Source of the DNA: Methanothrix sp.
Lineage (GTDB): Archaea; Halobacteriota; Methanosarcinia; Methanotrichales; Methanotrichaceae
Reading direction: 5' to 3'
Length of the DNA stretch: 64,000 bases
NCBI RefSeq assembly: GCF_030055635.1
Contig: NZ_JASFYM010000005.1
Span: forward strand, 1-64,000
Position 1 is the first letter of the stretch. Every line of letters begins with the position of its first letter. The notes beneath the pieces are model-generated. The model saw nothing but the letters and a program-made list of their open reading frames with translations, had not been told where the DNA came from and searched no databases. Both the position numbers and the translations under genes were made by a program. Below, piece after piece: positions 34,476 to 51,303 of the stretch.

Positions 34476-34530
34476 CTCAGCACCACTTGGAGAATGTGCA
34501 GCATCGTATTTAACAGTGCCGTCAGAAAGG

Positions 34531-34712
34531 TGGGGCTGGTGCGATTCGAACGCACGATCGACGGGTCTCTCCGATTCTGAGAACACATGATCATCTCAGT
34601 GCTCCAACGGATCATCAACGCCATCCCCGTCGGGATGGCTCAGCAGACCCGTTGCTCATCATCCAATCATACCGCTGGAGCCCGTCGCCCTACCTGGCTA
34701 GGCCACAGCCCC
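34531..34712 (-). tRNA. tRNA-Trp (CCA) with a 108-nt intron
   Basis: On the minus strand acceptor GGGGCTG (34712-34706) pairs with CAGCCCC (34538-34532); discriminator A at 34531. The anticodon arm is ACGGG, loop CT-CCA-G|A, CCCGT, interrupted at the usual site after position 37. The intron is 34567-34674. CTCC and GGAG form the central helix of a bulge-helix-bulge motif, with bulges AGC and AGA cut after the second base. The exons join to CTCCAGACCCGT. Tryptophan tRNA introns of this kind are known in Euryarchaeota. Confidence 0.95.
34567..34674 (-). ncRNA. Box C/D guide RNA within the tRNA-Trp intron
   Basis: Box C ATGATGA, D' CTGA, C' TTGATGA and D CTGA occur in that order. The guide before D' (ACGGGTCTG) pairs with CAGACCCGT of the spliced tRNA across the exon joint; the fifth base upstream of D' faces C39. 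The guide before D (TGGAGC, then A) pairs with GCTCCA; its fifth base faces C34. These are the two positions methylated through the same kind of intron in other Euryarchaeota. The joint-spanning guide also supports the predicted splice sites. Confidence 0.88.
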
Positions 34713-50934: not shown

Positions 50935-51081
50935 TTATCCTCTGCTCTCCTTGGACTTCATCCTGAGGCCCTTGTACCTGCATTTACGACAGCGTGTCGC
51001 CCTGACCGGGTTGCGCGCGTTGCAGCGCATGCATATCTTGACGTTCAGAACTCGATTTTCTGCCTCTGGAAATCTGGCCAT
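50935..51081 (-). CDS. rpl40e: Ribosomal protein L40e
   Basis: 48 aa. The sequence [20 protein letters not shown] is followed by [20 protein letters not shown] and a basic tail, which is the archaeal L40e with its two CxxC zinc ligands (CMRC and CRKC). It is a part of the large ribosomal subunit. The ATG is at 51079-51081 and the TAA at 50935-50937. It lies 33 bp after the tRNA-Ser gene and 8 bp before GGGP synthase, on the same strand. Confidence 0.95.
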
Positions 51082-51131
51082 GATGGTTACTCTCCCCGAT
51101 GAAGGATATCATTTTGGCGCCGGGGTTGGGA

Positions 51132-51161
51132 TTTTCATGGTGGACTCAGCGTCCGCGCCAT
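51132..51161 (-). other. 30-nt intron in the T loop of tRNA-Ser
   Basis: TTCA of the T loop pairs with TGAA at the intron end to form the central 4-bp helix. The bulges are AAA and AAT, cut after the second base, and TGG/CCA plus GGAC/GTCC continue the stem inside the intron. Splicing yields the standard T loop TTCAAAT between TTGGG and CCCAA. The intron lies between positions 59 and 60. Confidence 0.85.
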
Positions 51162-51212
51162 TTTGAACCCAAGCGTCCCTGGAAGGGACAACAGGTCTCG
51201 AGCCTGCCGCGT

Positions 51213-51245
51213 ATGGACCTCTGCCGCTGGAGCACGGCCCAGAGC
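51213..51245 (-). other. 33-nt intron in the D arm of tRNA-Ser
   Basis: GGAC (exon 1, D loop) pairs with GTCC at the intron end, forming the 4-bp central helix. The bulges are AAG and ATA, each cut after the second base. CTCTG and CAGAG form a 5-bp inner helix. Splicing leaves A21 followed by ACGCG, the normal shape apart from an A12-C23 mismatch. The intron lies between positions 21 and 22. Confidence 0.8.
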
Positions 51246-51292
51246 TTGTCCGCTCTGCCACCCCGGCACGACTTCAAGCTGAGAGATCTGAT

Positions 51293-51303
51293 GGTTTATA
51301 TCT
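51293..51303 (-). promoter_or_regulatory. TATA box of tRNA-Ser / L40e transcript
   Basis: CAGATATAAAC on the minus strand is a good TATA match 26-36 bp before the tRNA start. The genes for L40e, GGGP synthase and M24 peptidase follow with no gap over 35 bp, so all could start here. Confidence 0.65.

Follow-up and report, generated by a model that had tools for sequence, protein, structure and literature searches.

The minus strand of the window (the whole 64,000-nucleotide stretch that was analysed, from Methanothrix sp.) raises the question of whether two short inserts in a serine tRNA gene are introns located outside the anticodon loop and, if so, whether the splicing endonuclease of this organism would be expected to remove them. 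Reading from 51267 to 51115, the locus consists of GCCGGGGTGGCAGAGCGGACAA, a 33-nt insert, ACGCGGCAGGCTCGAGACCTGTTGTCCCTTCCAGGGACGCTTGGGTTCAAA, a 30-nt insert and TCCCAACCCCGGCGCCA. The sequence and coordinates of this tRNA-Ser(CGA) gene and its two inserts were verified, and its features are as follows.

51115–51267, minus strand: tRNA-Ser(CGA) precursor with two inserts and an encoded CCA (51115–51117).
51246–51267, minus strand: exon 1, consisting of the 5′ strand of the acceptor stem, the 5′ strand of the D stem and the D loop to A21; it ends at the point where intronless orthologues continue.
51213–51245, minus strand: intron 1, 33 nt, in the D loop (about 21/22), absent in orthologues of families f2, f6 and f7; its motif has the central helix GGAC/GTCC, bulges AAG and ATA and the inner helix CTCTG/CAGAG, with no adjacent outer helix.
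51162–51212, minus strand: exon 2, consisting of the remaining D stem, the anticodon arm, the long variable arm, the 5′ strand of the T stem and the T loop to A59.
51198–51200, minus strand: anticodon CGA.
51132–51161, minus strand: intron 2, 30 nt, in the T loop at 59/60, absent in all complete Methanosarcinaceae copies; its motif has the central helix TTCA/TGAA, bulges AAA and AAT, the T stem GGG/CCC as outer helix and the inner helix TGG/CCA.
51115–51131, minus strand: exon 3, consisting of U60 of the T loop, the 3′ strands of the T and acceptor stems, G73 and CCA.
51296–51301, minus strand: TATA box with the sequence ATATAA, at -34 relative to G1 and conserved across Methanotrichaceae.
50935–51081, minus strand: rpl40e, the gene for ribosomal protein L40e; in nearly all family members it lies immediately downstream.

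Removal of both inserts leaves 87 nt plus the encoded CCA. The resulting 90-nt product is a class II serine tRNA, as the first-pass annotation had claimed, with a long variable arm, the anticodon CGA and a tRNA-Ser(CGA) call by ARAGORN. The coordinates, insert lengths, bulges and central helices given in that annotation are all correct. In the D stem of the mature tRNA, A12 faces C23 in a mismatch, so that two of the three pairs form. C23 (window position 51211) is conserved in families f1, f4, f6 and f7 and in most of f3, with or without the intron, and is replaced by U23 in f2, f5 and genus g38. C-to-U editing or a tolerated A·C pair is possible. The idea that C23 is kept to pair with G18 in the precursor, making the mismatch a splicing constraint, was ruled out because the intronless f6 and f7 orthologues also contain C23.

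The warning that standard tRNA finders may miss the gene was borne out. Neither ARAGORN nor Rfam recognizes a tRNA in the unspliced precursor, and ARAGORN finds none when a single insert is removed; tRNA-Ser(CGA) is called only once both inserts are excised. A tRNA-Gly call obtained from the precursor by ARAGORN with introns allowed lies on the opposite strand and is an artefact. Because plain finders miss the gene, tRNA-Ser(CGA) may be listed as missing in annotations of Methanothrix genomes. To control for chance, all excisions that combine two 3-nt bulges with a central helix of 4 bp and an inner helix of 3 bp or more were enumerated. With one or two such cuts, 29 products can be formed from the precursor, and Ser(CGA) is called for two of them, the proposed pair and one artefact. 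In the latter (precursor positions 15–39 and 107–136), part of the acceptor stem is lost and conservation is absent. Applied to 378 further 153-nt segments of the window, the same enumeration yielded 4,345 excision products and no tRNA by ARAGORN.

The positions of the cuts are fixed by orthologues that lack the inserts. At the D junction, intronless orthologues have the predicted sequence exactly (GGACTAACGCG). These orthologues, from 43 genomes of two other families (f6 and f7), read TGGCAGAGCGGACTAACGCG, which is letter for letter the predicted GGACTA^ACGCG of Methanosarcinaceae and part of Methanotrichaceae, cut after the second bulge base; the genus of the window differs by one loop base (GGACAA^ACGCG). 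Likewise, the sequence in orthologues that lack the T insert is GGGTTCAAATCCC or GGGTTCGAATCCC, identical to the predicted T loop. Predicted excision thus restores the mature tRNA of intronless orthologues, in agreement with the earlier proposal that cutting after the second bulge base regenerates A21 and a canonical T loop. Of all the evidence, this match is the strongest single item.

Both inserts contain the bulge-helix-bulge (BHB) arrangement of a 4-bp central helix and two 3-nt bulges, with variation across the family in the fourth pair of the T insert. In the D inserts, all four pairs of the central helix form in 78 of 78 distinct sequences and inner pairs 1–3 in at least 77; inner pair 4 forms in 57, through several Watson–Crick types (shuffled mean 25, maximum 39). 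The central helix of the T insert has three pairs in all 37 distinct inserts, and its fourth is A-U in the genus of the window and A·G in most of the family. The predicted BHB registers are strongly preferred over shifted ones: 329 of 390 D-insert pairs form in the true register and at most 220 in slid registers, with corresponding values of 165 of 185 and at most 110 for the T inserts (37 distinct sequences). The T motif, which has both an outer helix (the T stem) and an inner helix, is nearly canonical. The D motif has an inner helix, but no outer helix adjoins its 3′ bulge because C16 faces C23 (or U23), which makes it a relaxed, HBh′-like motif by the definition quoted in PMC7714728.

Folding energies do not favour the BHB fold in the genus of the window, so it is comparison and not energy that underpins the BHB reading. 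The free-energy minimum is -71.5 kcal/mol, versus -64.1 kcal/mol for the BHB-constrained fold (gap 7.4), and contains a CAGAGC/GCUCUG hairpin in place of the D-insert BHB. The gap was 0–2.4 kcal/mol for those Methanosarcinaceae sequences that were tested.

A single splicing-endonuclease gene was found in the genome. It encodes a 360-residue chain with two PF01974 and two PF02778 domains (N-terminal and catalytic), and this chain accounts for the only PF01974 matches in the genome; a separate β-subunit gene is absent. The best PDB match is the Archaeoglobus fulgidus α′2 enzyme (2gjw, E = 3.7e-42). Alignment with the wild-type A. fulgidus protein is ungapped after the FYG motif, the site at which 3p1y has an insertion. 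The 3p1y entry is presumably a construct with the crenarchaeal loop inserted. The first-pass annotation had suggested determining the subunit type, and the enzyme is predicted to be a fused α′2 endonuclease, encoded by one gene and lacking the crenarchaeal-specific loop. The same chain is matched once in 60 of the 61 genomes that were searched. An RtcB gene is also present in the genome. In another genome of the genus, assembled as a single contig (G001:C1:737598-738677), the alignment of the endonuclease gene contains one in-frame TGA, from a sequencing error or another cause.

Whether such an enzyme would cut both motifs is disputed in the literature. Reviews tie non-canonical tRNA introns to (αβ)2 or ε2 endonucleases and to a special loop in them, and describe euryarchaeal α4 and α′2 enzymes as narrow and limited to canonical motifs (PMC4090602, PMC6379350). 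The A. fulgidus enzyme is called narrow elsewhere as well (PMC12397907). The earlier suggestion that the locus implies a broad-range endonuclease holds in part: relaxed cutting is granted to α′2 enzymes by some authors (PMC8707768), but the T motif is nearly canonical and others consider the enzyme narrow (PMC6379350). The locus tests this dispute, given the disagreement and a D motif without an adjacent outer helix.

Among the alternatives considered, the one that survives best concerns the D intron alone. On this view, removal of that intron would require either a helper or the setting of a complete tRNA, with α′2 EndA by itself unable to cut the isolated motif. The missing outer helix at C16/C23 points this way, as does the α′2 EndA of A. 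fulgidus, rated narrow and reported to cut a relaxed motif only in full-length pre-tRNA (PMC6379350). However, homodimeric enzymes are stated to cut BHL-like motifs without a tRNA body (PMC8707768), and D introns occur alone in Methanosarcinaceae, so that their removal is in general independent of the T intron; a need for a helper or for the whole tRNA is considered unlikely. A broader proposal is held tentatively, at less than even confidence: an α′2 enzyme without the crenarchaeal or ARMAN loop may remove two non-anticodon introns, one of them from a relaxed motif and with the D intron occurring class-wide.

The double-intron organization extends well beyond the window. The 153-nt locus is 98–100% identical in five genomes of the same genus and about 76–84% identical in about 25 family members. 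Records with both inserts are named Methanothrix or Methanosaeta (Methanotrichaceae), and records with the D insert only are from Methanolobus, Methanohalophilus, Methanococcoides, Methanosalsum, Methanohalobium and an ANME-3 genome. In 73 named records with the D insert, the T insert is present in 37 and absent in 34, and two are cut off by contig ends. Its presence splits by family: all complete Methanotrichaceae copies that were parsed have the T insert (37 distinct sequences), and all complete Methanosarcinaceae copies lack it. The exact D-insert pattern matches 122 of 238 genomes of the class, and the intronless-D pattern matches 45 genomes in the class-wide scan, with no overlap between the two sets. 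Family f2 lacks both inserts and has one immediately on the 3′ side of the anticodon, in keeping with a canonical 37/38 intron. In genus g18 (inferred to be Methanosarcina), no genome matched the D-intron pattern or the intronless one, and the Ser(CGA) gene was not identified. Judged from these sequence patterns, the D-loop intron is shared across the class Methanosarcinia and absent in several families, and the T-loop intron is a Methanotrichaceae-specific addition. One gene thereby offers a clean series of gains and losses, in which copies are intronless, have the D intron alone, have D and T together or have an intron in the anticodon loop alone.

A search for another complete tRNA-Ser(CGA) gene, which had been proposed as a check, found none in the genome (33 contigs, 99.75% complete). 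Apart from Ala(TGC), every other expected anticodon was represented in the census, which was based on Rfam and ARAGORN hits; since the Ala(TGC) tRNA was also missed, the search of this draft is not fully exhaustive. Almost all members of the family have a conserved TATA box between -32 and -36, rpl40e directly follows the tRNA at 39 loci, and the exons are nearly invariant across the family as the inserts vary with compensatory changes. The sole copy, the conserved promoter, the rpl40e synteny and the constant exons with changing inserts argue against a pseudogene, that is, an unused tRNA-Ser broken by two insertions, with UCG read through wobble by tRNA-Ser(UGA). The genome does contain tRNA-Ser(UGA), and there are euryarchaea, namely Methanococcales, that have no tRNA with a CNN anticodon at all (PMC6000648). 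Nevertheless, with the T insert in every complete Methanotrichaceae copy parsed, a pseudogene is very improbable and was ruled out by conservation, intronless orthologues and the promoter.

Retention of the inserts, to give a tRNA with expanded D and T loops or another structured RNA, would suit the stable folding of the precursor on its own (z = -2.37) but is scarcely credible and was ruled out on the same three grounds. The T loop and the D–T contacts needed for tRNA shape would be destroyed, the insert-free orthologues equal the spliced form exactly, the bulges and central helices fit the splicing motif at both sites in nearly all species, and no Rfam family is matched.

The best explanation as a whole, with a probability of about 0.95, is that the locus is the sole tRNA-Ser(CGA) gene of the genome and contains two non-anticodon BHB introns predicted to be spliced by the α′2 endonuclease and RtcB. 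The gene is real and conserved, and its transcript is almost certainly spliced, as read from the sequence. The double-intron tRNA-Ser(CGA) first proposed in the annotation is upheld by junction-matching intronless orthologues, conservation, compensatory changes, the promoter and the lack of a second Ser(CGA) hit. The analysis established the gene anatomy, the junctions from intronless orthologues, the conservation and the presence of the enzyme genes. Transcription would start from the gene's own TATA-box promoter and yield a two-intron precursor. The single fused α′2 endonuclease would cut each intron within its two 3-nt bulges, and RtcB would join the exons into the class II serine tRNA; any order of the two excision events is conjectural. 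If an ordinary α′2 enzyme does act at both sites, neither enzyme architecture nor the loop sets the sites of tRNA introns, and the co-evolution account needs revision. A conserved, sole-copy tRNA that needs two such excisions makes the dispute directly testable.

Other tRNA genes of the genome also contain introns. By ARAGORN, about a dozen contain introns that look canonical, which exceeds the figure of roughly 8% given for Euryarchaeota (PMC4090602). The tRNA-Trp gene at 34529–34712 of the window (minus strand) has a large 37/38 intron containing the C/D box guide RNA sR3, and tRNA-Trp introns nesting a box C/D RNA are already known (PMC4090602). In the Ser inserts, no Rfam match and nothing resembling a guide RNA was found, and a hidden guide as in tRNA-Trp was therefore rejected. 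The tRNA-Arg(CCT) gene (G000:C10:64541-64664) has a D-loop insert of about 47–52 nt, whose bounds are approximate because of GGA repeats at both ends. This insert is common to the genus and three other genomes of the family (G014, G011 and G010) and absent in most relatives; the intronless form reads CCAGGATATGG.

The literature search found no paper reporting this tRNA-Ser(CGA) gene; primary archaeal-intron papers were outside its scope. tRNAscan-SE 2.0 counted 673 non-canonical introns across 217 archaeal genomes, and the gene may already be in that table, uncommented (PMC8450103). D-arm sites and 59/60 are known for non-canonical introns, mainly in Crenarchaeota, at positions including 20/21, 22/23 and 59/60 (PMC4090602). 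The Ser introns resemble those of Thermoproteales and other Crenarchaeota in being short, outside 37/38, of BHB type and more than one per gene, with 59/60 a listed site (PMC4090602). Unlike the crenarchaeal cases, they belong to Methanosarcinia methanogens with a fused α′2 enzyme, not (αβ)2, and neither lies at the canonical site. A Thermoproteales-type burst of introns was not seen, as non-canonical inserts occur only in Ser(CGA) and Arg(CCT) among the tRNAs examined and the enzyme is of α′2 type. The canonical 37/38 introns of the same genome, such as that of tRNA-Trp with sR3 inside, are presumably cut by the same enzyme but differ from the Ser inserts in position. The only euryarchaea for which PMC4033280 lists multiple introns are Methanopyrus and Methanothermobacter, in agreement with the rarity stated in the first-pass annotation. 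In Methanosarcinia, the D insert in fact occurs throughout the class. Methanopyrus kandleri and Methanothermobacter share with this locus euryarchaeal tRNA genes with more than one intron. They belong to a different lineage; here the pair is family-wide and the D intron class-wide. The M. kandleri enzyme is (αβ)2 with a constrained-broad range (PMC6379350), whereas that of Methanothrix is α′2. The kind of intron, a non-canonical archaeal tRNA intron, is thus already known; its taxonomic home is unexpected, and it occurs with an enzyme regarded as narrow.
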